DNA from: Aminobacter carboxidus
GTDB taxonomy: Bacteria > Pseudomonadota > Alphaproteobacteria > Rhizobiales > Rhizobiaceae
DNA: 64,000 nucleotides
NCBI RefSeq assembly: GCF_014863355.1
Contig: NZ_JACZEP010000019.1
Span: 1-64,000, forward strand
Direction: 5' to 3'
Below the pieces are notes generated by a model that saw only the letters and a program-made list of their open reading frames with translations, was not told the DNA's origin and did not search any database. The first letter of the stretch is position 1; the number at the start of each line of letters is the position of its first letter. Shown here piece by piece: positions 37,220 to 55,440 of this stretch. The position numbers and the translations under genes were made by a program.

Positions 37220-38239
37220 CTATTCGGCCATCGAGAAGCGATACTCGGTGACCTGCGTGTAGATCTCGTCCGGCCTCAGCATGGCACTCGGAAAATGCGG
37301 CTGGTGGATGGCGTCGGGGAAACGCTGCGGCTCTAGGCACAGTGCGCCGTGGCGCACCGGCTCGATGCCGCCGCGCAATGGCGGGGCGACCGGCAGGAAG
37401 GCGCCGTCATAGAGCTGCAGCCCGGGTTCCGTGGTCCACAGGTCAAGCCGGATGCCCGATAGCGGACCTTCCAACCGAGCGGCGTGCCATGGCTCGGGCG
37501 CCGGCTGCATGGCAAGCACCCAGTTGTGGTCGTAAGCATTGTGCGCGTCGTCCGGACCGTTGCGGATGGGGCGAAGCTCGCGGAAATCGAAAATGGTGTC
37601 GTCCACGGCGAGCACCTCGCCGGTCGGGATGTTGCGATCGTCCACCGGGGTGTAGGCCTCGGCGGCGATCCTGAGGCGATGATCGAGGATCGAGCCGCCG
37701 CCGTCGAGATTGAAGTAGGCGTGGGCGGCAAGGTTGACCAGCGTCGGCGCATCGGTGCGGGCACCGAGCGCGATGCGCAAGCCGCCGGAATCGAGCGAAT
37801 AGCGGCAGGTGGCGATGACCTTGCCGGGGTATCCCTGGTCGCCGTCGGGTGAGATCAGGGCGAGCAGGACCGAGCTGTCATCAGCGTCGACAGTGATCCA
37901 GTTGCGGCGGAAAAACCCGTCGCCGCCGCCATGAAGATGGGTGTGGCCGGCTTCGTTGAGGTCGAGCCGGAAGTCCTGTCCGTCAAGCGAGAAGCGGCCG
38001 CCGGCGATACGGTTGGCGCAACGTCCGGCAATGGCGCCGAAGTAGCCGCCATGGCTGAGGTAGCCGGATAGATCGTCAAAGCCGAGGATGACCGAGCGCG
38101 GGCCGCTGGGCGTGGCGACGATCAGATCGGCAAGCGTCGCGCCGAAGGTCAGGATTTTTGCCTCGATGCCGTCGGCGGCGATGGTGATCGCCTGCACCAC
38201 GCTGTCGTCGGGCATTCGACCGAATTCGCTGATCGGCAT
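37220..38239 (-). CDS. galM: aldose 1-epimerase (mutarotase)
   Basis: The 339-residue product interconverts alpha and beta aldoses. It has the galactose mutarotase fold with HTHLHGGGDGFFRRNW near residues 97-112, a catalytic His in NLAAHAYFNLDGGGSILDH, and a Glu in LCLEPQRFPDAIHQP. It ends 3 bases from the SDR gene, convergently. It lies 75 bases after mocF on the same strand, so it may be the last gene of the moc operon while serving the neighbouring sugar pathway. Confidence 0.9.
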   Translation of the reverse strand: MPISEFGRMPDDSVVQAITIAADGIEAKILTFGATLADLIVATPSGPRSVILGFDDLSGYLSHGGYFGAIAGRCANRIAGGRFSLDGQDFRLDLNEAGHTHLHGGGDGFFRRNWITVDADDSSVLLALISPDGDQGYPGKVIATCRYSLDSGGLRIALGARTDAPTLVNLAAHAYFNLDGGGSILDHRLRIAAEAYTPVDDRNIPTGEVLAVDDTIFDFRELRPIRNGPDDAHNAYDHNWVLAMQPAPEPWHAARLEGPLSGIRLDLWTTEPGLQLYDGAFLPVAPPLRGGIEPVRHGALCLEPQRFPDAIHQPHFPSAMLRPDEIYTQVTEYRFSMAE

Positions 38240-38314
38240 CTTGGTTCGCTCCGCGCGGCCATCGGGCCCCGCGCAGCGTCCTGCAAACCGACACGATTCT
38301 CAAGTGGCTTTTGC

Positions 38315-39547
38315 CTAGGCGGCAAGCAGGCTCTTGAGCTTGACCGACGGCGCGGCCAGTGCGTCGATGTCGGGGTGCGCCGATCTCGCAATCAGCATCT
38401 CGGCCAGGCGGATGTCGCGCGCGACCGCATTGCCGGGACCGATACCGCTGGCAGCGACGAGGCGGCCATCGTGCTTGAGGTGGAACAGGATGAAGGCGCC
38501 GTCGTCCAGATCGCGGCGGATGGTGTGCTCGCCTTCGTCGGGCAGGCCGGCGATCTGCAGGCTGAGCCCGTACTGGTCGGACCAGAACCAGGGCACGCCG
38601 GCATGGACCTCGTCGGCACCGAGCATGTTGCGGGCGGCGAGCGCACCGTGTTCCTGGGCGCTGCGCCAGGCCTCCAGCCGGACCCGCCGTCCGCCATAGA
38701 CGGCAAGCGGAAACGAGCAGCAGTCACCGGCGGCGAAGATGTTGGGATCGCTGGTGCGCAGTTGCGCGTCGACAGCGATGCCATTGTTGAGGGTGAGGCC
38801 AGCGGTTTCGGCAAGTGCCGTCACCGGGATGGCGCCGATGCCGATGATGGCGAGGTCGGCTGCAACGGCACGACCGCTGGCCAGCGCGATGCGGACGGAC
38901 GTGCCGTCGTCGTTGACGGCAGCGATGCCGTTGCCGCAGATGAAATCTACGCCTTCGGCTGCGTGAGCTTCGTGGACGACAGCAGCGATTTCCGCTGGTA
39001 CGCCGCGCATCAGGATGCGGGGCTGCGCCTCGATGACGGTGACGTCGGCCCCCAACTTGCGGGCGGACGCAGCGAGTTCGAGGCCGATAAAGCCGCCGCC
39101 GATGATGGCGATGTGTGCGCCGGCACGTAAATAGCCACGGATGGCGAGGGCATCGTCGAAGGTGCGGAGATAAACGCAGCGGGCACCCAGGCCCGGAAGC
39201 GTCAACATCCGCGGGGTGGCACCGGTGGCAACCAGCAGCTTGTCGTAGTCGAGATCAGATCCATCGCTCAGGCGGATCGAACGGTTGGCGCGGTCGATCG
39301 AGGTGGCAGAGCTCGCGCCGAGCAGGTCGATGCGATGTTCGCTGAGGCGAGCTGCATCCGAAATGGCCTTGATGGAAGGTGTCTCGGAAGCGACCATCGC
39401 GTCCTTGGACAGTGGCGGCCGTTCGTAAGGCAGGTGCGCTTCAGCGCCGACCAGCGTGACGGTGCCGTCGTAGCCCATTTCCCGCAGGGCGAAGGCAGCG
39501 CGTGTGCCGCACTCGCCCGCACCGATGATGACCATTCCCGCCGACAT
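38315..39547 (-). CDS. mocF: FAD-dependent ferredoxin reductase, MocF type
   Basis: The 410-residue product has an N-terminal FAD motif (VIIGAGECGTRAAFAL), a central NAD motif (IAIIGGGFIGLELAAS), the NIFAAGDCCSFP block and a C-terminal reductase domain. It is of the BphA4/rhodocoxin reductase class that passes electrons from NADH to a [2Fe-2S] ferredoxin. The ferredoxin gene is 4 bases upstream and the oxygenase gene before that, matching rhizobial mocDEF. Confidence 0.88.
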   Translation of the reverse strand: MSAGMVIIGAGECGTRAAFALREMGYDGTVTLVGAEAHLPYERPPLSKDAMVASETPSIKAISDAARLSEHRIDLLGASSATSIDRANRSIRLSDGSDLDYDKLLVATGATPRMLTLPGLGARCVYLRTFDDALAIRGYLRAGAHIAIIGGGFIGLELAASARKLGADVTVIEAQPRILMRGVPAEIAAVVHEAHAAEGVDFICGNGIAAVNDDGTSVRIALASGRAVAADLAIIGIGAIPVTALAETAGLTLNNGIAVDAQLRTSDPNIFAAGDCCSFPLAVYGGRRVRLEAWRSAQEHGALAARNMLGADEVHAGVPWFWSDQYGLSLQIAGLPDEGEHTIRRDLDDGAFILFHLKHDGRLVAASGIGPGNAVARDIRLAEMLIARSAHPDIDALAAPSVKLKSLLAA

Positions 39548-39551: not shown

Positions 39552-39866
39552 TCAGCCCAACTGGACGAAGACCTTGCCGGCGTCGACTTTCACCGGATAG
39601 GTCCTGAGGTTGACGCAGACGGGCGCGCCGCGGGCAGCACCGGTCTTGTAGTTGAAGCGGCCATTGTGCTTGGGGCACTCGATAATGTCGCCCATGACCA
39701 GCCCCTGCGACAGGTGGATTTGCTCGTGCGTGCACAGGCCGTCAGTGGCGAAGAACTCGTCCTCCGGACTGCGGTAGAGCGCGAAAGTGCGCCCGGCATG
39801 GTCGAAGCGGATGACGTCTTCCTCGTCGATGTCGTCGGCCGCGCAGGCCTCGATCCAGTCGCTCAT
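39552..39866 (-). CDS. mocE: Rieske [2Fe-2S] ferredoxin, MocE type
   Basis: The 104-residue soluble Rieske protein binds its cluster by C45-x-H47 (GLCTHEQIH) and C64-x-x-H67 (ECPKHNGRF). There is no signal peptide or membrane anchor, so it is a ferredoxin, not a bc1 subunit. It carries electrons from the reductase to the MocD oxygenase. The gene sits between the two with 26 and 4 bases spacing. Confidence 0.9.
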   Translation of the reverse strand: MSDWIEACAADDIDEEDVIRFDHAGRTFALYRSPEDEFFATDGLCTHEQIHLSQGLVMGDIIECPKHNGRFNYKTGAARGAPVCVNLRTYPVKVDAGKVFVQLG

Positions 39867-39892: not shown

Positions 39893-40981
39893 CTATTCGG
39901 CGGCTAGCGCCGTCTCGCTATGGAACTCGTCGCGATAGGGCCGCGCCGTAGGCGGCAGTTCGCGCTTGACGAAATAGTCGTCGTTGCGGAGCTGGCGGAC
40001 GAAGGCTGGCAACATCTCGCGATAGCCGGCCCAGATCGACTGACAGGGTGCCGGCAGGTCGTGCTTGATCATTGCGTGCAGCTTGGGCAGCGCGTGATAG
40101 GGCACCATCGGGAACATGTGGTGTTCGACGTGATAGTTCATGTTCCAGTAGATGAAGCGGCTGACCGGGTTCATCAGCACGGTGCGGCTGTTGAGCCGGT
40201 GGTCGATGACGTTGTCGGCGAGACCGCCATGCTGCAGCAGGCCGGTGAGCACATGATGCCAGGCGCCGTAGAGCCGCGGCAGGCCGATCAGCATCAATGG
40301 CAGCCACGAGCCGAGATAGACGGCGAGCGCGATGGTCGCGGCATAGATCGCCACCCAGATACGGGCGATGCGGATGGCCCTTGGCTGCTCGCTTTCGGGG
40401 ATGAAGGTCTTTTCCTCGGCGCCGATCACACCTGATGCGTTGCGGAACATGTCGACCATGGCATGCCAGGCATCGAGCAGGCCAAAGAAGTTCAGTACGA
40501 CACGCAGCAGATCCGGCGGGCGCATGACTGATATTTCGGGGTCGCGACCGACGATGACGGTGTCGGTGTGATGGCGGGTGTGGCTCCAGCGCCAGGTCAC
40601 CGGATTGCGCATGATCATGAAGCAGGCGATCTGGTAGACCGCGTCGTTCATCCAAGGCGTCTTGAAGGCGGTGCCGTGGCCGCATTCATGCCAGCGCGAG
40701 TCGGTGGCCGAGCCGTAGAGCACGCCGTAGCAGACGAAGAACGGCACGCACCACCAGCTGCCCCAGAGCGCTGCACCGGCAGCGCCGAAAGCAACGAGCA
40801 GGCCGAGCCAGATCGCGGTGTCGCGGATGGCCGGGCCGTCGGAGCGCTGCATCAGCTCCTTCATCTGCTTGCGCGGAATGTCGGTGTGGTACCACTCGGC
40901 GGCGGCGAGGCCGCTGTCGATGGCGCGGCGCGCGCTGTCTCCCACAAGACTGTAGTCGCGCGCCGAAGGCGTCACGGTCAT
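39893..40981 (-). CDS. mocD: fatty-acid-desaturase-like di-iron oxygenase, MocD type
   Basis: The 362-residue membrane protein has three histidine boxes: H98-ECG-H102, H134-TR-HH138 and H284-VE-HH288. These are the ligands of the desaturase/alkane-hydroxylase di-iron centre. Hydrophobic pairs lie near 55-90 and 205-238. I start at ATG 40981 (MTVTPSARDY, GGGAGAG upstream). In rhizopine users MocDEF is thought to demethylate 3-O-methyl-scyllo-inosamine. Linkage here to inositol genes supports an O-methyl inositol substrate. A plain lipid desaturase is less likely given its ferredoxin and reductase partners. Confidence 0.85.
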   Translation of the reverse strand: MTVTPSARDYSLVGDSARRAIDSGLAAAEWYHTDIPRKQMKELMQRSDGPAIRDTAIWLGLLVAFGAAGAALWGSWWCVPFFVCYGVLYGSATDSRWHECGHGTAFKTPWMNDAVYQIACFMIMRNPVTWRWSHTRHHTDTVIVGRDPEISVMRPPDLLRVVLNFFGLLDAWHAMVDMFRNASGVIGAEEKTFIPESEQPRAIRIARIWVAIYAATIALAVYLGSWLPLMLIGLPRLYGAWHHVLTGLLQHGGLADNVIDHRLNSRTVLMNPVSRFIYWNMNYHVEHHMFPMVPYHALPKLHAMIKHDLPAPCQSIWAGYREMLPAFVRQLRNDDYFVKRELPPTARPYRDEFHSETALAAE

Positions 40982-40999
40982 GGCTCTCTCCCTGGAAGT

Positions 41000-41013
41000 C
41001 GGAAACGGTTCCG
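41000..41013. promoter_or_regulatory. palindrome upstream of mocD
   Basis: CGGAAACGGTTCCG is a 14-bp palindrome with one mismatched pair, 19 bases upstream of the mocD start in the mocD/lacI divergent region. Its symmetry and central CG resemble LacI-family operators. It is a separate motif from the ATGATGG repeats nearby. Confidence 0.45.
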
Positions 41014-41079
41014 CGATGGGCGCTGGAGATCGTTCACTGCAAGGATGGTAACGCATGATGATATTTTTTCAATCATAGC

Positions 41080-41106
41080 ATGATGGTTTCTATCATTTTC
41101 CATCAT
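41080..41106. promoter_or_regulatory. ATGATGG inverted repeat between mocD and lacI
   Basis: ATGATGG (41080-41086) and CCATCAT (41100-41106) form a perfect 7-bp inverted repeat in an AT-rich patch 36 bases upstream of the LacI regulator gene. A closely similar element (ATGATGG...TCATT) occurs at 42219-42237 before the IolI-like gene. The recurrence suggests a shared regulator, possibly the LacI protein encoded between them. Confidence 0.5.
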
Positions 41107-41142
41107 TGTGAGCTATGGTGGGTGCCTGCTGCAGGAGCGGAC

Positions 41143-42174
41143 ATGAGCAAGCGCCCGACCATCACCGATCTCGCCAACGCCTCGGGCGTCAGCGTCGCCA
41201 CCGTCGACCGGGTGCTGAACGGGCGCCTGCCGGTGCGCGAGGAAACGCAGCGTCGTGTCTACGAAGCCGCGACATCAATCGGCTATCACGCCGCCGGGCT
41301 GATTGCGCAGCGCATGCGCAAGGAGCTGCCGGTGCACCGTCTCGGCTTCGTGCTGCTGCGCCCAAAGGATGTGTTCTACCGTGCCTTCGCCAGCGAACTG
41401 GAGAAGGCGATCGCCCAGGCGTCGGGTTTCCGCGGCACCGCGGTGATCGAATTCGCCGATACGCTGGCGCCGGAAGAGATTGTGGAGCGGCTGCGGCGGC
41501 TGGCGGCGAGCTGCGATGCGGTGGCACTGGTCAGTCCCGACCATCCAACGGTGACGGCGGCGGTGACTGAGTTGAAGGAGCGCGGCGTTCCCGTGTTCTC
41601 GCTGCTGTCCGACTTCGCGTCAGGCATTCGCGAGGGTTATGTCGGCATCGACAACCTCAAGGTCGGTCGTACGGCGGCATGGATGATCTCGAAATGCGCC
41701 CGCAAGCCGGGCAAGGTGGCGCTGTTTGTCGGTAGCCATCGTTTCCATGGCCACGAACTGCGCGAGATCGGTTTTCGCGCCTTCTTTCGCGAGCACGCGC
41801 CCGATTTCACGCTGCTCGAGACGATCGTCAACCACGAGTCGCATGAGGTCACCCATGAGGTTGTCAAAGACCTGCTGCGGCAGCATGACGACGTCGTCGG
41901 CTGCTATGTCGCCGGCGGTGGCATCGAAGGCGCGATCTCGGCGCTGCGGCAGGCGAGGCCCGATCCGCTGCCAGTGCTGATCTGCAACGAAATCACCAAC
42001 GACACGCGCGCAGCGCTTGCCGACAATCTGGCTGTCATGGTGATCGCAACGCCGTTGGGGCCATTGTGCCGTGAGCTCATCGGGCTGATGGCGCATTCGA
42101 TCGAGGAGGGGTCGGCCAATGCCCCCGGCCAGACCTTCCTGCCGTTTGACGTCTTCCTGCCGGAAAACATCTAA
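41143..42174 (+). CDS. LacI-family transcriptional regulator
   Basis: The 343-residue product (ATG 41143, AGGAG six bases upstream) starts with the LacI helix-turn-helix (PTITDLANASGVSVATVDRVLNG, in parts). A periplasmic-binding-protein-like effector domain from about 60 to 335 follows. It is divergent from mocDEF and 148 bases before the IolI-like gene. It probably responds to the inositol derivative handled by these genes. IolR of rhizobia is an RpiR-type protein, so this is a different regulator. Confidence 0.87.
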   Translation: MSKRPTITDLANASGVSVATVDRVLNGRLPVREETQRRVYEAATSIGYHAAGLIAQRMRKELPVHRLGFVLLRPKDVFYRAFASELEKAIAQASGFRGTAVIEFADTLAPEEIVERLRRLAASCDAVALVSPDHPTVTAAVTELKERGVPVFSLLSDFASGIREGYVGIDNLKVGRTAAWMISKCARKPGKVALFVGSHRFHGHELREIGFRAFFREHAPDFTLLETIVNHESHEVTHEVVKDLLRQHDDVVGCYVAGGGIEGAISALRQARPDPLPVLICNEITNDTRAALADNLAVMVIATPLGPLCRELIGLMAHSIEEGSANAPGQTFLPFDVFLPENI

Positions 42175-42218
42175 CCGGCGTTGACGTGCTGCGACTGGCC
42201 GTTCGAATCTATCAGAGA

Positions 42219-42237
42219 ATGATGGATTTTCGTCATT
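42219..42237. promoter_or_regulatory. ATGATGG element upstream of the IolI-like gene
   Basis: ATGATGG-ATTTTCG-TCATT recurs here, matching ATGATGG-TTTCTA-TCATT at 41080-41097 apart from one base of spacing. It lies just upstream of a likely promoter at 42245-42272. Confidence 0.45.
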
Positions 42238-42322: not shown

Positions 42323-43138
42323 ATGACCAGCACGCTCAATTTCGCGCTCAATCACATGGCGGCGCCAGGCTTGTCGCCGGCGGACTTCTTTGCGCTGAGC
42401 AAGAAGCTCGGCATTTCCAATGTTGAAATCCGCAACGATCTCGCCAGCAACGCGATCCTCGACGGCACGCCCGCCGGGGTCATTCGCGACCTGGCCGCGG
42501 AAACTGGAATATCCATAACGAGCATCAACGCGCTGCAGCGCTTCAATGAGTGGAATGCGACGCGCGCGGCCGAAGCGATCGCGCTTGCCGATTATGCCCG
42601 CGACGTCGGTGCTGCGGCTCTGGTGCTGGTGCCCGTCAATGACGGGTCGGGGCAGGGCGATGGCGAGCGCCAGCGCAACGTCAGGGGCGCGCTGTCAGCA
42701 CTGAAGACCATCCTCGGCGACCGCGGCGTGCGTGGTCTTGTCGAGCCGCTCGGGTTCGAAGTCTGTTCCTTGCGTTCCAAGCGCGAAGCGGCAGAAGCGA
42801 TCGCCGATGTCGGCGGCCTCGACGTTTTCCGTATGGTGCATGACACGTTCCACCACCATCTTGCCGGCGAGCCCGACATTTTCCCCGGGATGACTGGCCT
42901 TGTGCACATTTCCGGCGTCGACGATCCGGTAGTCGGTGTCGCCGACATGCGCGATCCACACCGTATCCTTGTCGATGCCGGCGACAGGCTCGACAATGTC
43001 GGGCAGATCCGCGCGCTGGTCGCCGGCGGCTATTCCGGGCTGTTGTCGTTCGAGCCGTTTTCGCCTGCCGTGCACCGGCTTGCCGATCCGCAGGCGGCGT
43101 TGGCCCAGAGCATCGCCTTTATCGGCTCGCGGCTCTGA
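42323..43138 (+). CDS. iolI: xylose-isomerase-like TIM barrel, probable inosose isomerase
   Basis: The 271-residue TIM-barrel protein begins LNFALNHMAAPGLSPADFFA and has acidic metal-type residues at strand ends: VEPLGFEVCS, RMVHDTFHHHL, HISGVDD and LLSFEPFS. It belongs to the sugar isomerase family with IolI, IolE and hydroxypyruvate isomerase. IolI converts 2-keto-myo-inositol and 1-keto-D-chiro-inositol. A separate IolE is encoded at 52493, so IolI is the best fit. The MocC-like protein of rhizopine clusters is an alternative. Confidence 0.72.
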   Translation: MTSTLNFALNHMAAPGLSPADFFALSKKLGISNVEIRNDLASNAILDGTPAGVIRDLAAETGISITSINALQRFNEWNATRAAEAIALADYARDVGAAALVLVPVNDGSGQGDGERQRNVRGALSALKTILGDRGVRGLVEPLGFEVCSLRSKREAAEAIADVGGLDVFRMVHDTFHHHLAGEPDIFPGMTGLVHISGVDDPVVGVADMRDPHRILVDAGDRLDNVGQIRALVAGGYSGLLSFEPFSPAVHRLADPQAALAQSIAFIGSRL

Positions 43139-43448: not shown

Positions 43449-44384
43449 ATGAAGAAGTATTTGCTCGGCGCTGCCTTGTCGGCGCTGATGACGGGTTCCG
43501 CGCTTGCTGGCGACATCGGCGTCAGCATGGCGAATTCGGACACCTTCCTGACCGTCCTGCGCAAGGGCATCGAAAAGGCCGCGGCCGACGCCAGCCAGCC
43601 TGTCGTCATCGAAATTGCCGACGACGACGTCAACAAGCAGCTCAGCCAGGTCCAGAACTTCATCGCCGCCAAGGTTGACGCAATCATCGTCAACGCCGTC
43701 GACACCTCGGCGACCACGCCGATGACCAAGCTTGCCAATGACGCCGGCATTCCGATCGTCTACGTCAACCGCCAGCCGATCGACGTCGATGCGCTTGGCG
43801 AAAAGGGCGCGTTCGTCGCTTCCGACGAGGCCGAATCCGGCACGCTCGAGACCAAGGAAGCCTGCCGCCTGCTGAAAGCGGCCGGCAAGACCGAAGCCGG
43901 CATCCTGGTGATGCAGGGCGACCTCGCCAACCAGGCCGCCGTGATGCGTACCAAGGACGTCCACGACGTGATCGCGACGCCGGATTGCTCTTTCATCAAG
44001 ATCATCGACGAGCAGACGGCCGGCTGGGATCCGGTCAAGGCACAGGATCTGATGACCAACTGGATCGCTGCCGGCCACAAGCCGGATGCCGTGATCGCCA
44101 ACAACGACAACATGGCGATCGGCGCGATCAACGCCATGAAGGCTGCCGGTTGGGACATGAAGGACGTCATCGTCGGCGGTGTCGATGCGACCCAGGAAGC
44201 GCTTGCCTACATGAAGGCTGGCGACCTCGACGTGACCGTGTTCCAGGACGCGGCCGGCCAGGGTGGCGGCGCCATCAAGGCGGCGATGTCTCTGGCCAAG
44301 GGCGAAAAGGTCGAGCCCAAGGTCTGGATCCCGTTCCAGTTGGTGACGCCTGAGAACATGGACCAGTTCGTTTCCAAGAACTGA
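43449..44384 (+). CDS. mocB: periplasmic inositol/rhizopine-binding protein, MocB/IbpA type
   Basis: The 311-residue substrate-binding protein has the signal peptide [20 protein letters not shown]. The ribose/inositol-binding fold shows as [48 protein letters not shown]-like residues and [19 protein letters not shown]. MocB in rhizobia binds rhizopine and its relatives bind myo-inositol. The downstream ATPase, permease and iol genes make inositol the safer substrate. GGAGGAG precedes the ATG. Confidence 0.85.
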
Positions 44385-44396
44385 TACGATCCATGA

Positions 44397-44425
44397 GATG
44401 CGCCGCCGAGCGGCGGTGGCGCATC
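44397..44425 (+). terminator. hairpin after mocB
   Basis: GATGCGCC (44397-44404) pairs with GGCGCATC (44418-44425) with further GCCG/CGGC pairing inside. It follows the mocB stop by 12 bases. There is no U-run, so partial termination or mRNA protection is likely, raising binding protein above ATPase. Confidence 0.55.
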
Positions 44426-44584
44426 TTCCCTCCGTGCGTGACCCTGGAAATCGGGATCGATTTTCGAAGAAGTTCATGCACGGATTTGAGTTGTCGCGGC
44501 GTCCTTTGCGCATCCATGGGACGCGCAGCGCTGTGGGATACAGCGCCTCAAGCCAAGCTTGAGCCGGGTCTGGGAGGACCGATT

Positions 44585-47211: not shown

Positions 47212-47247
47212 GACGTGATCTTGTCCGAAAACCTTTGGGATCACGTC
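47212..47247. repeat. rhizobial GATC-arm palindromic repeat
   Basis: GACGTGATC (47212-47220) and GATCACGTC (47239-47247) form a perfect 9-bp inverted repeat around TTGTCCGAAAACC. I recognise this as a shortened form of a very common rhizobial intergenic element (core TGATCTTGTCCGAAAACC). It lies between iatP and idhA and may act as a terminator. Confidence 0.7.
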
Positions 47248-47348
47248 AGAACTCGGGCCGCCCGGCATCCCGTCGGCGGGCGGCTCCATCCCTCCCAGAT
47301 CAAGATATGCAGTGCCCGGACGGTGCGGGTCACGGAAATGAGGTTGTC

Positions 47349-48344
47349 ATGACAGTTCGGTTTGGTGTCCTGGGCGCAGGCCGCATCGGCAAGGTCCACG
47401 CCAAGGCGGTGGCGTCCAATGCTTCGGCAAGGCTCGTTGCGGTGGCGGACGCCTTCGAAAAGGCGGCGAACGATCTCGCCGAGGCCTATGGCTGCGACGT
47501 ACGCTCGATCGAGCAGATCGAGGAAGCATCTGATATCGACGCGGTGGTGATCTGCACGCCGACCGATACCCATGCCGACCTGATCGAGCGTTTTGTGCTC
47601 GCCGGCAAGGCGGTGTTCTGCGAAAAGCCGATCGACCTCGATGCCAAGCGCGTCGAACAGTGCCTCGCCGTCGTCGACAAGGCGGGCGGCACGCTGATGG
47701 TCGGTTTCAACCGGCGCTTCGACCCGCATTTCGCCGCCGTGCGCAAGGCGATCGACGACGGCGCCGTCGGCAAGGTCGAACAGGTGGTGATCACCTCGCG
47801 CGATCCCGGCCCGCCGCCGGCGGAATACATCACGCGTTCGGGCGGCATCTTCCGCGACATGACGATCCACGATTTCGACATGGCGCGCTTCCTGCTCGGT
47901 GCCGAGCCGGTGGCAGTGACGGCGACAGCGTCGGTGCTTGTCGACAAGAAGATCGGCGAGCTCGGCGATTTCGACAGCGTCAGCGTCATCCTGGAGACGG
48001 CGAGCGGCCAGCAATGTGTCATCACCAATTCGCGCCGCGCCACCTATGGCTATGACCAGCGCATCGAGGTGCATGGATCGGACGGCATGGTGGCGGCCGA
48101 GAACCAGCGCGCCGTGTCGATCGAGGTCGCCAACGGCAAGGGCTACACGCGCCCGCCGCTGCACGACTTCTTCATGACCCGTTACACCGAGGCCTATGCC
48201 GCCGAGATCGCTGCCTTCGTCGCCTCGGTGACCAAGGGCGCGAAAGTTTCGCCAAGCGGCCGCGACGGGCTGATTGCGCTGCAGCTTGCCGATGCCGCGC
48301 TGAAATCTGCCAAGGAAGGCAAAACGGTCCGCCTCAAGGGTTGA
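47349..48344 (+). CDS. idhA: myo-inositol 2-dehydrogenase (Gfo/Idh family)
   Basis: The 331-residue enzyme oxidises myo-inositol to 2-keto-myo-inositol with NAD. It has the Rossmann motif GVLGAGRIGKVHAKAV, the catalytic Lys of the EKP motif (CEKPIDLD near residue 95) and Asp/His of HDFDMARFLLG near 173-181. Length equals rhizobial IdhA. The start at ATG 47349 has GAGG five bases upstream. It is also in the family of MocA of rhizopine clusters. It lies between transporter and iolC genes. Confidence 0.9.
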   Translation: MTVRFGVLGAGRIGKVHAKAVASNASARLVAVADAFEKAANDLAEAYGCDVRSIEQIEEASDIDAVVICTPTDTHADLIERFVLAGKAVFCEKPIDLDAKRVEQCLAVVDKAGGTLMVGFNRRFDPHFAAVRKAIDDGAVGKVEQVVITSRDPGPPPAEYITRSGGIFRDMTIHDFDMARFLLGAEPVAVTATASVLVDKKIGELGDFDSVSVILETASGQQCVITNSRRATYGYDQRIEVHGSDGMVAAENQRAVSIEVANGKGYTRPPLHDFFMTRYTEAYAAEIAAFVASVTKGAKVSPSGRDGLIALQLADAALKSAKEGKTVRLKG

Positions 48345-48407: not shown

Positions 48408-48421
48408 GGAATAAATATTCC
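48408..48421. promoter_or_regulatory. IolR-like box, exact GGAA-N6-TTCC
   Basis: GGAA-TAAATA-TTCC is an exact match to the motif published for rhizobial IolR repression of inositol genes. It sits directly upstream of TTGACT (48424-48429) and 92 bases before the iolC start. Confidence 0.7.
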
Positions 48422-48423
48422 GA

Positions 48424-48452
48424 TTGACTGTATTGTGGAATTGAAATTTCAT
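48424..48452 (+). promoter_or_regulatory. iolC promoter
   Basis: TTGACT (48424-48429), 17 bases, then TTTCAT (48447-48452; four of six matches). The spacer and -10 are covered by the second IolR-like box, so repression by steric block is expected. Confidence 0.5.
48437..48450. promoter_or_regulatory. second IolR-like box upstream of iolC
   Basis: GGAA-TTGAAA-TTTC matches GGAA-N6-TTCC with one mismatch and lies 29 bases from the first box, start to start (nearly three helical turns). It overlaps the likely iolC -10. Confidence 0.6.
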
Positions 48453-48512
48453 TGTTTGGCCTGCTGCACCAAACAAGGCAGGCCGGCGCGGCGGAGCGAC
48501 CGGGAGGAACAC

Positions 48513-50447
48513 ATGGCCGATCCCAACACCCAGCCTACAGCGCAACTCGACGTGATCACCATCGGCCGCGCCTCGGTCGATCTCTATGGCCAGCAGACCG
48601 GTTCGCGGCTCGAGGATGTCGCGTCCTTCGCCAAGTCGGTCGGCGGCTGCCCGGCCAACATCGCAATCGGCACGGCAAGGCTGGGCCTGCGCTCCGCACT
48701 TCTGACACGCGTCGGCGACGAGCATATGGGCCGCTACATCAGCGAGCAGATGCGGCGCGAGGGCGTTTGCGTCGACGGGCTGGTGACCGACAAGGAGCGG
48801 CTGACGGCGCTGGTATTGCTGTCGGTCGAGAACGACCGCACCTTCCCGCTGATCTTCTACCGCGAGAACTGCGCCGACATGGCGCTCGTCGAAGACGACA
48901 TCGACCCTGATTTCATCCGGTCGGCCCGGGCGATCGTCGTCACGGGCACGCATTTTTCACGACCCTCCACCGATGCCGCCCAGCGCAAGGCGATGCGGCT
49001 CATCAAGGAGGTCGGCGGCAAGGTGGTGTTCGACATCGACTACCGTCCGAATCTTTGGGGGCTGGCCGGCCATGCGGCGGGCGAAAGCCGCTACATCGCC
49101 TCCGATGCGGTTTCCAACCACCTCAAGGGTGTGCTGGCCGATTGCGACCTGATCGTCGGCACCGAAGAAGAGGTGATGATCGCGTCCGGCGAAGGCGAAC
49201 TTCTGGACGCGCTGAAGACCATCCGCGCGCTGTCGGACGCGACAATCGTGCTCAAGCGCGGCCCGATGGGCTGCATCGTCTATGACGGGCCGATATCAGA
49301 CGACCTCGAGGCCGGCATCGTCGGCAAGGGGTTTCCGATCGAGGTCTACAACGTGCTTGGCGCGGGTGACGCCTTCATGTCGGGCTTCCTGCGTGGCTGG
49401 CTGGGCGGTGAAAGCCTGGCCACCTCAGCGACCTGGGCCAATGCCTGCGGCGCCTTTGCGGTGTCGCGGCTGCTTTGTTCGCCGGAAATCCCGACCTTCG
49501 AGGAGCTGCAGTTCTTCCTCAGCAACGGCAGCAAGCAGCACGCTCTGCGCAAGGACGAGGCGATCAACCACGTGCACTGGGCAACCACCCGGCGCAACGA
49601 GATCCCCTCGATGATGGCGCTGGCCTGCGACCACCGCAGCCAGCTCGAAGATGTCGCCGCGCGCACCGGCACCGACCCGGCGCGCATCCGCGACTTCAAG
49701 GTTCTGGCGGTCAAGGCGGCGGCCAAGGTTGCCGGCGGGCGCGACGGCTACGGAATGCTGATCGATGAAAAGCATGGCCGCGAGGCGATGTTCGAATTCG
49801 CCCGTCATACCTTCGGCTGGCTCGGCCGGCCGGTGGAGCTGCCGGGCTCGCGGCCGCTGCGTTTCGAATTCTCGCAGGATATTGGCTCGCAGCTCGTCGA
49901 ATGGCCGCTCGACCACACCATCAAGTGCCTGTGCTTCTACCACCCCGACGATCCGGCGGAACTCAAGGCCGAGCAGCAGCAGAAGCTGCGCACCCTGTTC
50001 GAGGCCGCGCGCAAGGTGGGTCGCGAACTGCTGATCGAGATCATTGCTGGCAAGCACGGCAAGCTCGATGAGGACACCATTCCGCGCGCGCTGGAAGAGC
50101 TCTATGCGATCGGCATCAAGCCCGACTGGTGGAAGCTCGAACCGCAGGCTTCAGCCGGCGCGTGGAAGAAGATCGAGGCGGTCATCACCGGCAACGACCC
50201 TTATTGCCGTGGCGTCGTGCTGCTCGGGCTCGAGGCGCCATTGGCCGAATTGGAAGTGGCGTTTGCCGCGACCGCCGATGCATCGGTGGTCAAGGGCTTC
50301 GCGGTCGGGCGCAGCATCTTTGCCTATGCGGCGGAAGAGTGGATGGCCGGCCGGATGAACGACCAGGCCGCGGTCGACGACATGGCCCAGCGTTTCGAAC
50401 AGCTGACCAAGGCATGGCTTGCCGCACGCGACAGTCGGGCGGCATAA
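48513..50447 (+). CDS. iolC: fused 5-dehydro-2-deoxygluconokinase with DUF2090 aldolase-like domain
   Basis: The 644-residue product has a PfkB kinase domain (about 15-335; VSFAKSVGGCPANIAIG and the anion-hole motif LGAGDAFMSGF near 281-291). It phosphorylates 2-deoxy-5-keto-gluconate. The C-terminal DUF2090 domain (about 345-640) has MMALACDHRSQLEDVAART, YGMLIDEKHGREAM and VKGFAVGRSIF. It resembles class I aldolases and is annotated in relatives as the next step, cleavage of the phosphorylated product. No separate iolJ is present, which fits the fusion. ATG 48513 has GGGAGGA upstream. Confidence 0.92.
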   Translation: MADPNTQPTAQLDVITIGRASVDLYGQQTGSRLEDVASFAKSVGGCPANIAIGTARLGLRSALLTRVGDEHMGRYISEQMRREGVCVDGLVTDKERLTALVLLSVENDRTFPLIFYRENCADMALVEDDIDPDFIRSARAIVVTGTHFSRPSTDAAQRKAMRLIKEVGGKVVFDIDYRPNLWGLAGHAAGESRYIASDAVSNHLKGVLADCDLIVGTEEEVMIASGEGELLDALKTIRALSDATIVLKRGPMGCIVYDGPISDDLEAGIVGKGFPIEVYNVLGAGDAFMSGFLRGWLGGESLATSATWANACGAFAVSRLLCSPEIPTFEELQFFLSNGSKQHALRKDEAINHVHWATTRRNEIPSMMALACDHRSQLEDVAARTGTDPARIRDFKVLAVKAAAKVAGGRDGYGMLIDEKHGREAMFEFARHTFGWLGRPVELPGSRPLRFEFSQDIGSQLVEWPLDHTIKCLCFYHPDDPAELKAEQQQKLRTLFEAARKVGRELLIEIIAGKHGKLDEDTIPRALEELYAIGIKPDWWKLEPQASAGAWKKIEAVITGNDPYCRGVVLLGLEAPLAELEVAFAATADASVVKGFAVGRSIFAYAAEEWMAGRMNDQAAVDDMAQRFEQLTKAWLAARDSRAA

Positions 50448-50505
50448 ACAGACAGCTGAAGCGAGGCCTGCATCCCCGGATGCACTGCTGCAGCGGGAGG
50501 AGGAT

Positions 50506-52359
50506 ATGATGACCAAGACCGTTCGCCTGACGATGGCGCAGGCGCTGACGCGCTACCTGACGCGGCAGATGACCGTGATCGACGGCAAGAAACTGCCGCT
50601 GTTCGGGGGTGTCTGGGCGATCTTCGGCCATGGCAATGTCGCCGGCATCGGTGAAGCGCTGTACCAGCTACGTGACGAGCTGCCGACCTATCGCGCCCAC
50701 AATGAGCAGGCGATGGCGCATGCGGCGATCGCTTTTGCCAAGACCAATTTCCGCCAGCGGATAATGGCGGCGACCAGCTCCATCGGTCCGGGCGCGGTCA
50801 ACATGGTGACGGCGGCGGCACTGGCCCACGTCAACCGGCTGCCGGTGCTGTTGTTGCCCGGCGACGTGTTCGCCAACCGCGTGCCCGATCCGGTGCTGCA
50901 GCAGGTCGAGGATTTCGGCGACGGCACGGTATCAGCCAATGACTGCTTCCGCCCGGTGTCGCGCTATTTCGACCGCATCACGCGGCCCGAGCAGATCATT
51001 GCGGCGCTGGCGCGCGCCATGCAGGTGCTGACCGACCCGGCCGATTGCGGGCCGGTGACGCTGTCGCTTTGCCAGGACGTTCAGGCCGAGGCTTATGATT
51101 ATCCCGAGAGCTTCTTCGCCAAGAAGGTGTGGTCGCAGCGCCGGCCACGGCCGGACCGTGATGAACTCGCAGCAGCAGCCGAAGCGTTGAAGGCAGCAAA
51201 GAAGCCGCTGATCGTCGCCGGTGGCGGCGTGCTCTATTCCGGCGCATCCAAGCAACTCGACCGCTTCGTCCAGGCCACCGGCATTCCGGTTTGCGAGACA
51301 CAGGGCGGCAAGTCGGCGCTGACCGATGAACATGAGCTCAACATGGCCGCTGTCGGCGTCACCGGCACATCGGCTGCCAACCGGCTGGCCGAAGAAGCGG
51401 ACGTCGTGCTCGCTGTCGGCACCCGGCTGCAGGATTTCACCACCGGCTCATGGTCGCTGTTCAAGAACGCAGGCAAGACCATCATCGGCCTCAATGTCCA
51501 GCCGTTCGATGCCGCCAAGCACAAGGCGTTGCCGCTGGTGGCGGACGCCAGGGAAGGGCTTGCCGAACTCGGCGCCGCGGTCGCCGCCTACAAGGCGCCG
51601 GCATCGTGGACCGAGAATGCCAGGAGCGGAAAAGCCGAGTGGCGCAAGGCGGCCGCCAAGGTGACGGCCGCGACCAACGCAGCACTACCCTCCGACGCGC
51701 AAGTAATCGGTGCGGTCCAGCGTACGCTGGGCAGCGAGGTCATCGTGCTGCATGCGGCTGGCGGCCTGCCGGGCGAGATGCACAAGCTGTGGCGGGCGGG
51801 GAGCCCCGGCTCCTACCACTCCGAATATGGCTTCTCCTGCATGGGCTACGAGATCGCAGGTGGGCTGGGTGCCAAGATGGCGCGGCCTGACAGGGAGGTC
51901 GTCATCATGATCGGCGACGGCTCCTACCTGATGCTGAACTCGGAGATCGCGACTTCGGTGATGCTCGGCCTCAAGCTCACTATCGTGCTGCTCGACAATC
52001 GTGGCTATGGCTGCATCAACCGACTGCAGATGGCCACCGGTGGCGCCAGCTTCAACAATCTCCTGCGCGACAGCCGCCATGAGGTGCTGCCTGACATCGA
52101 CTTCGTGGCGCATGCCAAGAGCCTTGGAGCTCATGCCGAGAAGGCGTCGTCCATCGCCGATTTTGAGGCAGCGCTCGACCGCGCCCGCAAGAGCGACCGG
52201 ACGACTGTCGTTTTGATCGATACCGATCCGTTGATCTCGACCGACGCGGGTGGGCACTGGTGGGACGTCGCGGTGCCTGAGGTGAGCGCCCGTCCTGAAG
52301 TGAATGTTGCGCGCAAGGGCTATGAGGAAAAGCTCAAGCTGCAGCGGGTTGGGGACTGA
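50506..52359 (+). CDS. iolD: 3D-(3,5/4)-trihydroxycyclohexane-1,2-dione hydrolase
   Basis: The 617-residue thiamine-diphosphate enzyme opens the ring of the dehydrated inosose. The N-terminal glutamate region is YRAHNEQAMAHAAIAFAK. The thiamine/magnesium motif is GDGSYLMLNSEIATSVMLGL...NRGYGCINRLQ at about 470-510. Two adjacent ATGs (50506 and 50509) follow a strong GGGAGGAGG site. It lies between iolC and iolE as in S. meliloti. Confidence 0.94.
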   Translation: MMTKTVRLTMAQALTRYLTRQMTVIDGKKLPLFGGVWAIFGHGNVAGIGEALYQLRDELPTYRAHNEQAMAHAAIAFAKTNFRQRIMAATSSIGPGAVNMVTAAALAHVNRLPVLLLPGDVFANRVPDPVLQQVEDFGDGTVSANDCFRPVSRYFDRITRPEQIIAALARAMQVLTDPADCGPVTLSLCQDVQAEAYDYPESFFAKKVWSQRRPRPDRDELAAAAEALKAAKKPLIVAGGGVLYSGASKQLDRFVQATGIPVCETQGGKSALTDEHELNMAAVGVTGTSAANRLAEEADVVLAVGTRLQDFTTGSWSLFKNAGKTIIGLNVQPFDAAKHKALPLVADAREGLAELGAAVAAYKAPASWTENARSGKAEWRKAAAKVTAATNAALPSDAQVIGAVQRTLGSEVIVLHAAGGLPGEMHKLWRAGSPGSYHSEYGFSCMGYEIAGGLGAKMARPDREVVIMIGDGSYLMLNSEIATSVMLGLKLTIVLLDNRGYGCINRLQMATGGASFNNLLRDSRHEVLPDIDFVAHAKSLGAHAEKASSIADFEAALDRARKSDRTTVVLIDTDPLISTDAGGHWWDVAVPEVSARPEVNVARKGYEEKLKLQRVGD

Positions 52360-52492: not shown

Positions 52493-53410
52493 GTGAAAGC
52501 CAAACTGGGCATGTCCCCCATTGCATGGTGGAATGACGATCTTGCGGAACTGAGTGATGACGTGTCGCTGGAGGAATGCCTTCGCCAGTCTCGGTCAGCC
52601 GGCTTCACCGGCATGGAGCAGGGGCGCCGGTTCCCGACTACGCCGGGCGAGATGCTGCCGATCCTGAAGAAGGCCGACGTGACTTTGTGCGGTGGCTGGT
52701 TCTCGGGCACGCTGGTCAATGACGAACTGGCCGGAAACAAGGATCGTATCCAGCCGATGATCGATTTGTTCAAGGCGGTCGACGCGCCGTGCATCGTCTA
52801 TGGCGAGGTCGGCCGCTCGATCCAGGGCGATCGCTCCGGGCCGCTCGCCGGCAAGGCGGTACTCTCCGATGACGAGATGAAAGTCTATGCTCGCAAGCTG
52901 ACCGCGTTCGGCGAATGGTGCGCCGAACAGGGCATGCCGCTGTCTTACCACCACCACATGGCGGCGGTGGTGCAGTTCGAGCATGAGCTCGACGCCTTCA
53001 TGAGACATTCTGGCGAAGGTATCCCGCTGCTGCTCGACGCCGGCCATCTCGCCTTTGCCGGTGGCGACGTGCTGCGCGCCATCGACAATCATCACAAGCG
53101 CATCAACCATGTGCATGTGAAGGACGTGCGCATGGACGTCATTGGCGCGCTCGACTGGACGAAGCAGTCGTTCCTCGACGCCGTGGCGCTCGGGGCATTC
53201 ACCGTGCCCGGCGACGGCTCGCTCGACTTCGGCAAGATCGTCCAGAAGTTCGCCGACTACGGCTATGAGGGCTGGTTCGTCGTTGAAGCCGAGCAGGACC
53301 CGAAAAAGAACCCGCCGTTGAAGATGGCCGAGGTCGGCCATGCCGAGCTGATGCGGGTGATGACCGCCGCCGGTTACACGGTAGAGACCCAGGGCTTCCC
53401 CAACGCATGA
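52493..53410 (+). CDS. iolE: myo-inosose-2 dehydratase
   Basis: The 305-residue TIM-barrel enzyme dehydrates 2-keto-myo-inositol. IolE-type sequences are LGMSPIAWWNDDLAELSDD, MSLSYHHHMAAVVQFEHELD-like sequence near residue 143, LLDAGHLAFAGGDVLRAIDNH and FVVEAEQDPKKNPPL near the C-terminus. The start is GTG 52493 with GGAG seven bases upstream. Confidence 0.94.
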   Translation: MKAKLGMSPIAWWNDDLAELSDDVSLEECLRQSRSAGFTGMEQGRRFPTTPGEMLPILKKADVTLCGGWFSGTLVNDELAGNKDRIQPMIDLFKAVDAPCIVYGEVGRSIQGDRSGPLAGKAVLSDDEMKVYARKLTAFGEWCAEQGMPLSYHHHMAAVVQFEHELDAFMRHSGEGIPLLLDAGHLAFAGGDVLRAIDNHHKRINHVHVKDVRMDVIGALDWTKQSFLDAVALGAFTVPGDGSLDFGKIVQKFADYGYEGWFVVEAEQDPKKNPPLKMAEVGHAELMRVMTAAGYTVETQGFPNA

Positions 53411-53570
53411 CCCGCAAGAGTGCTGCCTGTCATCTCTGGGGACCATGCTTCAATTCAAGGCATTGCGGCAGTCTGTGTCCGTCATGGATGCGAGGCGCCG
53501 CGGTGCTTGAGCATGGTGCCGGGGCCAGCTACGATCCCATCAGGATCACAGGCGAGGCATTGCGAAATTG

Positions 53571-53771: not shown

Positions 53772-53777
53772 GAGACC

Positions 53778-54590
53778 ATGTCGAAACTGCTGATCAAGCC
53801 CAAGCATGGCACCGGACGTGTCACCCATGTGACGCCTGAAACCGCCGGCTGGACCTATGTCGGCTTCGACCTGCACAAGCTCGAGCCTGGCGACACGTTC
53901 GGTGACTGGACGGCCGACCGCGAGACCTGCCTGGTGCTGGTCACCGGCAAGGCGCATGTCAGGGTCGGCGACGACGATCTTGGAACGCTGGGCGAGCGCA
54001 TGTCGCCATTCGAAGGTAAGCCGTGGTCGGTCTACGTGCCTGCGGGCGGCGACTGGTCGGTGCGGGCGGAGACCAATGTCGAGCTCGCAGTGTGCACCGC
54101 TCCGGGCCTCGGCGGCAACCTGCCGGTGCGGGTGATCGGCCCCGACGACGTCAAGCAGGAGACGCGCGGCAAGGGCACCAACACGCGTTACGTCACCAAC
54201 ATCCTGCCGGAAGGCGAGCCGGCGGATTCGCTGCTGGTGGTCGAGGTCATCACACCAGGTGGCCATAGCTCGAGCTACCCGCCGCACAAGCACGACCAGG
54301 ACAACCTTCCAGCTGAATCACTGCTGGAGGAAACCTATTATCATCGGCTCAACCCGCCGCAGGGTTTCGCCTTCCAGCGCGTCTACACCGAGTTCAACGA
54401 TGCCGGCCATCGCGAGCTCGACGAAGCGATGGCGATCGAGGACGGCGACGTGACGCTGGTGCCCAAGGGCTACCATCCCTGTGCGGCCTGCCACGGTTAC
54501 GACCTTTATTATCTCAACGTCATGGCCGGGCCGAAGCGGACGTGGAAGTTCCACAACGCCAAAGAGCATGAGTGGCTGCTGAAGGCCTGA
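53778..54590 (+). CDS. iolB: 5-deoxyglucuronate isomerase
   Basis: The 270-residue cupin enzyme converts 5-deoxy-glucuronate to 2-deoxy-5-keto-gluconate. IolB motifs are THVTPETAGWTYVGFDLHKL, GGHSSSYPPHKHDQDNLP (metal-binding histidines) with the downstream Glu in LEETYYHRLNPPQGF, and VPKGYHPCAACHGYDLYYLNVMAG. AAGGAG precedes the ATG. Confidence 0.94.
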   Translation: MSKLLIKPKHGTGRVTHVTPETAGWTYVGFDLHKLEPGDTFGDWTADRETCLVLVTGKAHVRVGDDDLGTLGERMSPFEGKPWSVYVPAGGDWSVRAETNVELAVCTAPGLGGNLPVRVIGPDDVKQETRGKGTNTRYVTNILPEGEPADSLLVVEVITPGGHSSSYPPHKHDQDNLPAESLLEETYYHRLNPPQGFAFQRVYTEFNDAGHRELDEAMAIEDGDVTLVPKGYHPCAACHGYDLYYLNVMAGPKRTWKFHNAKEHEWLLKA

Positions 54591-54633
54591 AGGGCCGACG
54601 CAGCTTGCACATTCCCGAACCGAGGAGAAAACG

Positions 54634-55440
54634 ATGGCACGCAACAGGCCAACGGTCGCGGACCTGCGCGCGCTGAAAGGCAAGCGGCAACTGTCGAAGC
54701 TCAGGGTGACGACGCTCGAAGAAGCCGAGGCTGCCGAGCGTGCCGGCATCGACCTATTGTCGGTGACCTACGGGCTGATGCTCGACAAGGGCTTTCGCGA
54801 CGCGGCTCCGACCTGCTTTGCCGTGCCCGGCGACGAATACGGCATGATGGGAGCGACGACAGCCGAGGTCCTGCGCACGGCGGTCAAGCTGAAGGCGGCG
54901 AGTGCTGATGCCGTCTATTGCTCGGCGAGCTTCAAGACGATCCGACGGCTGCGCGACGAGCACATCCCGGTCTGTGGCCATGTCGGCCTGATCCCGACGC
55001 ACTCGACCTGGACCGGCGGCTTCCGGGCCGTGGGCAAGACGGCAGAGACAGCGGCGCTGGTGTGGAAGCAGGTCAAGGATCTCGAAGACGCCGGCGCCTT
55101 TGCCGCCGAGATCGAGGTCGTGCCGGCTGAGGTGGCGAGCGCAATCTCCAGGCGCACGCCATTGGTGCTAATCTCGATGGGCGCGGGCGCGGGCTGCGAC
55201 GCGCAGTATCTGTTTGCCGAAGATGTGCTTGGGCTCAATCGCGGCCACACTCCGCGCCACGCCAAGGTCTATCGCAATCTGGCTGTGGAATATGACCGCA
55301 TCCAGCAGGAGCGGATTGCGGCGTTTCAGGAATATGCCGGCGACGTCGCCAGCGGTGCCTATCCGGCAGCGGGCCACACGGTCGGCATCGACGCCGCCGA
55401 GATGCGCAAATTCGAGGAATTTCTGAGCGGGCAGGCCTAG
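54634..55440 (+). CDS. divergent PanB-family (PEP mutase-like) TIM-barrel protein
   Basis: The 268-residue product matches ketopantoate hydroxymethyltransferase in its second half: IPVCGHVGLIPTHSTWTGGF, EIEVVPAEVASAISRRTPLV and SMGAGAGCDAQYLF. The first half is altered. The family VGDS magnesium site is replaced by SVTYG, the DxPF site by a PGDEYGMM stretch, and the catalytic VKIEGG by VYCSAS. True pantothenate synthesis is therefore doubtful. It closes the iol operon (43 bases after iolB), so an aldol step in inositol carbon flow is plausible but unproven. Confidence 0.75.
   Translation: MARNRPTVADLRALKGKRQLSKLRVTTLEEAEAAERAGIDLLSVTYGLMLDKGFRDAAPTCFAVPGDEYGMMGATTAEVLRTAVKLKAASADAVYCSASFKTIRRLRDEHIPVCGHVGLIPTHSTWTGGFRAVGKTAETAALVWKQVKDLEDAGAFAAEIEVVPAEVASAISRRTPLVLISMGAGAGCDAQYLFAEDVLGLNRGHTPRHAKVYRNLAVEYDRIQQERIAAFQEYAGDVASGAYPAAGHTVGIDAAEMRKFEEFLSGQA

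Follow-up and report, generated by a model that had tools for sequence, protein, structure and literature searches.

The stretch of interest, positions 37220–55440 of a 64,000-nucleotide window (the whole length of DNA analysed), lies in the 6.29-Mb genome of Aminobacter carboxidus. It carries the oxygenase genes mocDEF beside a divergent lacI regulator gene, an isomerase gene, an inositol-type transporter and the inositol catabolic genes idhA and iolCDEB. Judging from sequence comparisons and from published expression data read afresh, this unit probably serves growth on O-methylated inositols, with pinitol as a plausible substrate and the leading candidate. Two parts of the unit are new: (i) PanBL, a protein with a predicted PanB fold encoded by the last gene of the iol operon, and (ii) two related DNA elements, here called E1 and E2, located on either side of lacI. 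A sequence-only reading of the window had already listed the moc, lacI, isomerase, transporter and inositol genes; curated cut-offs and Pfam matches confirm each of them at its position. That reading overlooked PanBL and also galM, which lies downstream of mocF.

The mocDEF operon and its link to inositol genes

Family calls were made with Pfam and NCBIfam profiles on chosen open reading frames of the window. The oxygenase operon lies on the reverse strand. MocD (39893..41056) is a non-haem oxygenase of the FA_desaturase family (PF00487, 125 bits) with the histidine boxes HECGH, HTRHH and HVEHH. It shares the operon with MocE (39552..39866), a Rieske-type 2Fe-2S ferredoxin that passes the curated cut-off of the 'MocE family' model TIGR02377 (184.3 against 136.15 bits), and with MocF (38315..39547), a flavin adenine dinucleotide (FAD) ferredoxin reductase (PF07992 and PF14759). 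There is one copy of mocD in the genome. The divergent lacI gene (41080..42174, forward strand) encodes a FixV-class LacI/GalR regulator (PF00356 and PF13407); because the N-termini are conserved, the true starts are probably 40981 for mocD and 41140 for lacI, with 158 bp between them. A PDB sequence search with MocD returned nothing at E ≤ 1, and the structure model of MocD was poor (mean predicted local distance difference test score, pLDDT, of 51) and was not used.

Neighbourhood conservation was examined in the best 80 of 565 MocD relatives, all 72–94% identical to the window protein, so that the tallies describe the close clade; the flanks of several loci are cut by contig ends. The nearest relatives among the matches listed are five Aminobacter records (89–94%), and a MocD tree (FastTree, 126 rows) places the window protein among them. 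All five of these other Aminobacter loci (L019–L023) keep the gene arrangement as far as their 10-kb flanks reach; the arrangement is not due to chance. Across the 80 loci, a divergent LacI gene is found in 78, mocE in 80 and mocF in 78. PanBL directly follows mocF in 47, the isomerase gene lies in the fetched stretch of 44, and the binding-protein gene (at least 50% identity), idhA (at least 60%), purU and folD are found in 45, 36, 20 and 7, respectively. A further 29 of the 36 genomes without the isomerase gene at the locus carry one elsewhere (E ≤ 1e-35), bringing the total to 73 of 80 genomes. Orders in which mocD is joined to iol genes recur outside Aminobacter: a Rhodobacterales plasmid (L013) shows LacI, mocD (69%), mocE, PanBL, a second LacI, the isomerase, an ABC (ATP-binding cassette) transporter, idhA, iolC, iolD and iolE, and joined orders are also seen in a Devosia metagenome-assembled genome (L098) and in two Phyllobacterium (L085, L090).

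The association with inositol catabolism extends to a class-wide sample of 385 genomes. Fourteen of these carry MocD at E ≤ 1e-60, and iolD exceeds its cut-off in 11 of the 14, against 45 of the 371 genomes without MocD (56/385 overall; Fisher p = 6e-8, or 3e-7 without the window genome). These p values are optimistic, because three of the 14 genomes belong to one family and two to another and are thus not independent. Together with the LacI gene in 78 of 80 loci, this enrichment supports the earlier proposal that MocDEF is here tied to inositol catabolism rather than to rhizopine.

All inositol genes of the window lie on the forward strand. The inositol 2-dehydrogenase gene idhA (iolG; 47235..48344) scores 419 bits with TIGR04380 (cut-off 355). 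It is followed by iolC (48435..50447), with a fused aldolase domain (NF047869, 727 bits, cut-off 600; the cut-off of TIGR04382 is also passed), iolD (50419..52359; TIGR04377, 952 bits, cut-off 715), iolE (52493..53410; TIGR04379, 364 bits, cut-off 290) and iolB (53778..54590; TIGR04378, 323 bits, cut-off 205). One protein in the genome exceeds the IolE-family cut-off. No iolA gene is present among the window genes examined; a candidate (malonate-semialdehyde dehydrogenase; TIGR01722, 653.5 bits, cut-off 448.5) lies on another contig. A small putative membrane-protein open reading frame sits between iolE and iolB (forward strand, approximately 53569–53770, coordinates by eye).

Inositol-type transport genes precede idhA, likewise on the forward strand. 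The periplasmic binding protein (43449..44384; MocB/inositol type, PF13407) has its best PDB match in 4yo7 (214 bits), which we take to be an inositol-bound structure, and is 58% identical to its counterpart in a rhizopine-type locus. Next come an ABC transporter ATPase (44393..46123; two PF00005 domains), in which the domain begins at residue 83 and the true start lies further downstream, and a permease (46154..47197; PF02653). Beyond the unit, genes for a type I secretion ABC transporter (PrtD-type) and an HlyD adaptor occupy 57136–60978 on the opposite strand.

DNA elements beside the regulator and isomerase genes

The isomerase gene (42323..43138, forward strand) encodes a Msi119-like TIM-barrel isomerase/epimerase (PF01261). 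The sequence-only reading had called it IolI-like; the TIM-barrel isomerase part of that description stands, while the protein is nearer to PDB 2q02/4hgx (138 bits) than to IolI itself (1i60, 24 bits). We take 2q02/4hgx to be Salmonella STM4435, IolI2, and hence call the window protein IolI2-type. Putative metal-ligand motifs, whose identity as ligands we assume, are retained at positions 140, 173, 194 and 243. In published work, iolI2 is termed uncharacterised (PMC10783015).

Two related DNA elements flank lacI. E1 (TGATGGTTTCTATCA, 41081..41095) lies in the mocD–lacI gap and is a candidate LacI operator; it is the sole exact match in the 64 kb, where 0.01 are expected; of 100 dinucleotide-shuffled versions of the window, one contains a match. 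E2 (CTATCAGAGAATGATGG, 42209..42225) lies before the isomerase gene and is likewise the sole exact match in the 64 kb, on both strands. Both elements were spotted by eye and then counted in the same set of loci; because these related loci also served to define the elements, the following counts are descriptive. Allowing up to one mismatch, E1 (generalized as TGATRG-N3/4-CYATCA) is found in 69 of 78 mocD–lacI gaps and 22 of 39 lacI–isomerase gaps (mononucleotide shuffles: means of 0.35 and 0.15; rest of the loci: 0.096 per kb). E2, generalized as CTWTCA-N3-5-TGAWRG, is exact in 17 of the 39 lacI–isomerase gaps and present with at most one mismatch in 33 (shuffles: 0 and 0.4), while only 19 of the 78 mocD–lacI gaps contain it at the latter stringency (shuffles: 0.78). 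A simple palindrome scan of the intergenic regions of the window missed both elements, and a first pattern, ATGAT-N5-9-ATCAT, was discarded after matching only 16/78 and 14/39 gaps.

The elements also accompany the isomerase gene elsewhere. For 30 isomerase loci from genomes that lack the gene at the listed mocD locus (one of the 30, L202, adjoins another mocD), the 400 bp upstream contain, with one mismatch allowed, E1 in 17 cases and E2 in 14. E1 is present in four of five Sinorhizobium isomerase–transporter loci (L196–L200), and in Mesorhizobium it lies between lacI and the binding-protein gene in six of eight loci (L225–L230, L232, L233). FixV-class LacI genes are thus found beside mocD, the Msi119-type isomerase gene or both, with common DNA elements. 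At the other promoters of the window the picture may be different: the binding-protein, idhA and iolC promoters may answer to IolR instead. A match to GGAA-N6-TTCC, which we take to be an IolR-type box, precedes iolC (48408..48421); with two matches in the window against 0.92 expected, and two reached in 24 of 100 shuffles, it is weak taken alone and only suggestive.

The regulator also links the unit to symbiotic nitrogen fixation. In Mesorhizobium loti R7A, FixV, a LacI-family protein, activates nifA2; FixV homologues adjoin mocDEF and Msi119-type epimerase genes, and an inositol derivative has been proposed as the FixV inducer (PMC3538637). The window LacI is 55–74% identical to 20 full-length Mesorhizobium copies. 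In three Mesorhizobium loci (L240, L241, L245), the gene for a LacI 58% identical to that of the window precedes one that encodes a sigma-54-activator motif; in L240 the second gene is recognised as NifA by TIGR01817 (262 bits, under the full-length cut-off, with the sequence cut by the locus end). All three loci contain an exact E2 between the FixV-like and NifA-type genes.

The L240 gap equals the 558 bp of PMC3538637 if the second of two closely spaced Met codons is taken as its end point; the exact E2 starts 522 bp ahead of this codon and 510 bp ahead of the first one. Deletion constructs with 536 and 426 bp were Fix+ and Fix−, respectively (PMC3538637), so that E2, as located in L240 rather than in R7A, lies inside the former and outside the latter. 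E2 thus fits a nifA2 control site, as could other sequences in the interval. An E1-like site beside fixV was also considered for this role and rejected: with a 558-bp gap it falls just outside the 536-bp Fix+ clone, and would therefore not be required.

PanBL, a predicted PanB-fold protein and frequent neighbour of mocDEF

PanBL is encoded by the last gene of the iol operon (54634..55440, forward strand; PF02548, 137 bits), and the genome carries a separate panB. The protein is predicted to adopt the PanB fold: in a Foldseek search with a PanBL model (mean pLDDT 80) the best 28 matches are all PanB chains, 3vav among them (1.6e-18; template modelling score, TM, 0.70). The metal ligands of PanB are, we assume, three acids, and the PanB of this genome has them (motifs VGDS, VDMP and KLEGG). 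All three are replaced in 28 of 28 close PanBL proteins, while the active-site His and Glu are retained in 28 of 28. In a wider set of seven, none retains the second or the third acid, and six have lost the first; a first-place Asp is retained in the PanBL proteins of L121 and L013. Because these presumed ligands are missing, PanBL is unlikely to make ketopantoate by the known PanB mechanism.

In relatives, the PanBL gene often lies close to mocDEF. Among the 33 loci without an adjacent PanBL gene, 26 genomes carry one elsewhere (E ≤ 1e-30), and the best copy lies beside mocD, mocE or mocF in 18 of these (in the Mesorhizobium cases, a second mocD), at the end of iolE–iolB in five Aminobacter, beside folD and/or purU only in two, and beside neither in one. 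In Aminobacter, the iol operon ends with the usual neighbour of mocDEF, which is further evidence that both operons serve one pathway. In a phylum sample of 398 genomes, 25 PanBL copies were found in 19 genomes (including that of the window), all belonging to the window's own class. Nineteen of the 25 copies have mocD, mocE or mocF within a flank of approximately 1.5 kb; the six without include the window copy, which follows iolB. In small, AT-rich genomes, too, PanBL genes adjoin MocD-like genes of only about 35–40% identity or lie no more than 1.5 kb from them (L131, L132, L133, L135, L136).

Further arrangements of MocD-like and PanBL genes were seen along the way. A second mocD (66–71% identical to that of the window) with an adjoining PanBL gene occurs in L148–L163, mostly Mesorhizobium, and forms a separate clade of the MocD tree; its substrate may differ from that of the window type. 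One small genome (G161; L133, L134, L135; 1.6 Mb, GC content approximately 0.30) holds five MocD-like and two PanBL genes, among neighbours for ABC sugar transport, gluconolactonase, an IlvD/EDD dehydratase, glycoside hydrolase family 4 (GH4), a fatty-acid-hydroxylase-type protein and aldehyde dehydrogenase; these loci look like a set for O-methyl sugar demethylation. In three genomes of 1.4 Mb (G337, G259 and G030, with L131, L132 and L136), a MocD-like gene (38–39%) adjoins PanBL, and in L136 a Rieske oxygenase gene is close by; iolD exceeds its cut-off in two of the three, G337 and G030.

PanBL most likely handles the one-carbon unit that MocDEF would release, for example by promoting the condensation of formaldehyde with tetrahydrofolate; a role with an aldol acceptor, or a non-catalytic one, are the alternatives. 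O-demethylation by an oxygenase releases formaldehyde, the reaction of formaldehyde with tetrahydrofolate is usually treated as spontaneous, and FolD and PurU convert methylene-tetrahydrofolate to formate. Aminobacter are described as methylotrophs that pass methylene-tetrahydrofolate to the serine cycle (PMC8235418), and the spontaneous reaction has been judged too slow to support growth (PMC7073904). In the same work, deletion of panB and ltaE in Escherichia coli left the result unchanged, which speaks against ordinary PanB joining formaldehyde to tetrahydrofolate (PMC7073904).

Substrate, rival explanations and known systems

The preceding sections suggest the following route. The ABC transporter would import the cyclitol, and electrons would pass from MocF via MocE to MocD, which would hydroxylate the O-methyl carbon; the resulting hemiacetal would split into free inositol and formaldehyde. 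With a pinitol-type substrate, the product D-chiro-inositol would be oxidised by IdhA and the ketone isomerised by the IolI2-type TIM barrel, after which IolE, IolD, IolB and IolC, with iolA encoded elsewhere, would complete the route. The divergent FixV-class LacI would control mocDEF and the isomerase gene via the two related elements, and PanBL would deal with the one-carbon unit, possibly by the condensation proposed above. The claim of the sequence-only reading that genes in the window cover every step is thus not upheld: the iolA candidate lies elsewhere, the released one-carbon unit had not been considered, and the isomerase is, we presume, IolI2-type. Its route from pinitol to D-chiro-inositol fares better, in that an isomerase gene sharing elements with mocD fits it; the exact substrate is not readable from the sequence.

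Published expression data are consistent with growth on a methyl-inositol. When Rhizobium mesoamericanum was exposed to Mimosa pudica root exudate, mocDEF rose 1.5–2.1-fold, a mocB-type ABC operon 4–4.7-fold and idhA 2.4-fold, and the iol genes were also up; pinitol was the most concentrated compound listed for the exudate (145 µM), against 0.73 µM inositol (PMC5789663). In our view, pinitol fits this response better than rhizopine does.

Several observations weigh against the proposal that the unit serves growth on methyl-inositols. The exudate also contained fructose and gluconate at approximately 110 µM, and the authors inferred rhizopine catabolism (PMC5789663). The substrate is not given by the sequence, because the window MocD shares 80% identity with its counterpart at a rhizopine-type locus. 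Some of the linkages are incomplete: iolD over cut-off is missing in three of the 14 MocD genomes, the isomerase is absent at E ≤ 1e-35 from seven of the 36 genomes lacking it at the locus, and PanBL was not found at E ≤ 1e-30 in seven of 33 genomes, including five from the R. tropici/lusitanum group. Six class-sample genomes with a MocD of 52–64% identity (L122–L127) have no PanBL in the fetched stretch (one, G070, has a copy elsewhere; for the other five, the search covered that stretch); here the neighbours of mocD are M20 peptidase genes in L123, and ABC transport and metalloenzyme genes in L122. Since genomes with MocDEF and without PanBL exist, PanBL is not indispensable. As for the elements, neither E1 nor E2 occurs at up to one mismatch in the window gaps that lie upstream of the binding-protein gene, of idhA and of iolC, and both were picked out by eye from the very loci, themselves related, in which they were counted.

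The alternatives concern what MocDEF acts on. One keeps the methyl-inositols and changes the product: O-methyl-myo-inositols (ononitol, sequoyitol, bornesitol) would be demethylated to myo-inositol, which would go straight to IdhA, and the isomerase would serve another cyclitol. Legumes widely contain pinitol, ononitol or both, and ononitol is described as the precursor of rhizopine (PMC8730688). A myo-inositol product would need no isomerase, however, and the isomerase gene shares its elements with mocD and is present in 73 of 80 genomes; this favours a chiro-type product, as from pinitol, over myo-inositol, as from ononitol, and we consider the myo-inositol version rather unlikely. The O-methyl sugar hypothesis, in which galM and an adjacent sugar cluster would be the partners of MocDEF and the iol genes merely neighbours, draws on the distant MocD-like genes of G161 with their gluconolactonase, IlvD/EDD dehydratase, GH4 and ABC sugar genes, and on the closeness of galM, an aldose 1-epimerase gene (37220..38239, reverse strand; PF01263; PRK11055, 248.5 bits) that begins 75 bp past mocF. 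That closeness is found in only five of the 80 loci, all Aminobacter, and PanBL, the commonest gene after mocF, ends the iol operon in the window and in all five other Aminobacter. We therefore dropped galM as a functional partner; it probably belongs to the sugar cluster, and the hypothesis as a whole is improbable. This cluster (31075–37216, convergent with galM) comprises ABC transport genes, an AraD1-type (GguC) gene and a xylose-dehydrogenase-like short-chain dehydrogenase/reductase gene.

Catabolism of the rhizopine 3-O-methyl-scyllo-inosamine is the process from which mocDEF takes its name; the mocD promoter of Sinorhizobium meliloti L5-30 is scyllo-inosamine-inducible (PMC10107442), and the 58% identity of the binding proteins points the same way. 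As the sequence-only reading had noted for aminotransferase and MocR-type genes, neither was recognised among the window proteins put to Pfam and NCBIfam, nor was a MocA/MocC-type gene, and the single IolE-family protein over cut-off also argues against this option. With the MocB-like binding protein as the only such component recognised among the proteins examined, the rhizopine reading was rejected as very improbable, and methyl-inositol is favoured over it. Of the 80 loci sampled, 78 carry LacI rather than MocR and one is of rhizopine type (R. bangladeshense L086, with MocA/MocC-type genes), which makes the latter arrangement exceptional here; in L095, LacI and MocA/MocC-type genes are both absent. 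A second rhizopine-type locus, S. meliloti KH35c (L018, plasmid records), also has MocA/MocC-type genes. In the tree, both rhizopine-type MocDs fall inside an 84-row clade that is otherwise of LacI type bar L095, and within its 53-row subclade (both with local support 95); the L018 protein joins two S. meliloti MocDs of LacI context, and the L086 protein occupies an open fork at the subclade base. Lastly, a lipid desaturase or hydroxylase without any cyclitol role is suggested by the Pfam family of MocD, FA_desaturase. The MocE-family Rieske ferredoxin in the operon, the iol linkage and the elements shared by the regulator and isomerase genes make this extremely improbable, and the genetics of mocDEF in rhizopine catabolism also counts against a lipid enzyme. 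Part of that genetics is reported in PMC10107442.

Taken as a demethylation unit for methyl-inositols, the stretch provides a candidate pinitol demethylase complete with regulator, DNA elements and partner protein, and suggests that methyl-inositol use is the general case, of which the 'rhizopine' genes are one special form. A search of the open literature (titles and the openings of abstracts, with subscription papers outside it) turned up no bacterial pinitol demethylase, and moc, pinitol and rhizopine do not come up in the main text of PMC6421345. In PanBL, the unit also offers a concrete candidate for the enzyme that would couple formaldehyde with tetrahydrofolate, and the FixV link makes the nifA2 inducer of M. 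loti directly testable. A bolder, joint version, which we put forward tentatively and regard as doubtful, would have (i) PanBL as a dedicated formaldehyde-to-tetrahydrofolate loader, (ii) MocD–PanBL as a widespread alphaproteobacterial module for the demethylation of O-methyl polyols and sugars, with rhizopine use a late offshoot, and (iii) the FixV-class LacI as a sensor of methyl-inositol or a catabolite of it, rewired to nifA2 in M. loti. If this were true, a plant nodule cyclitol would gate nitrogen fixation in M. loti; pinitol and ononitol accumulate in legume nodules (PMC8730688).

The unit can be compared with four known systems. The rhizopine locus mocCABR-mocDEF (S. meliloti L5-30 and R. 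leguminosarum), compared here via L018, has a MocD approximately 80% identical to that of the window, the same oxygenase–ferredoxin–reductase set, a related binding protein and PanBL after mocF; the window differs in having LacI rather than MocR, no recognised MocA or MocC, an isomerase of its own, and a junction with idhA and iolCDEB. The bacterial iol pathway with a D-chiro-inositol branch is that of IolG and IolI in Bacillus subtilis. The window resembles it in idhA, iolC, iolD, iolE, iolB and a TIM-barrel isomerase, and departs from it in the IolI2-type isomerase, the upstream demethylase and PanBL. PanBL itself shares with PanB the predicted fold (TM approximately 0.7) and the active-site His and Glu, and differs in the missing acids that we take to be metal ligands, a C-terminal extension and invariant motifs of its own. 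Finally, the FixV (Msi360)–Msi119 module of M. loti (PMC3538637) shares with the window a LacI that is 58% identical to the copies preceding the NifA-type gene, isomerase homologues of 44–70% identity in Mesorhizobium, and E2, which is common to both; the difference is that the M. loti LacI drives nifA2 rather than a catabolic operon.

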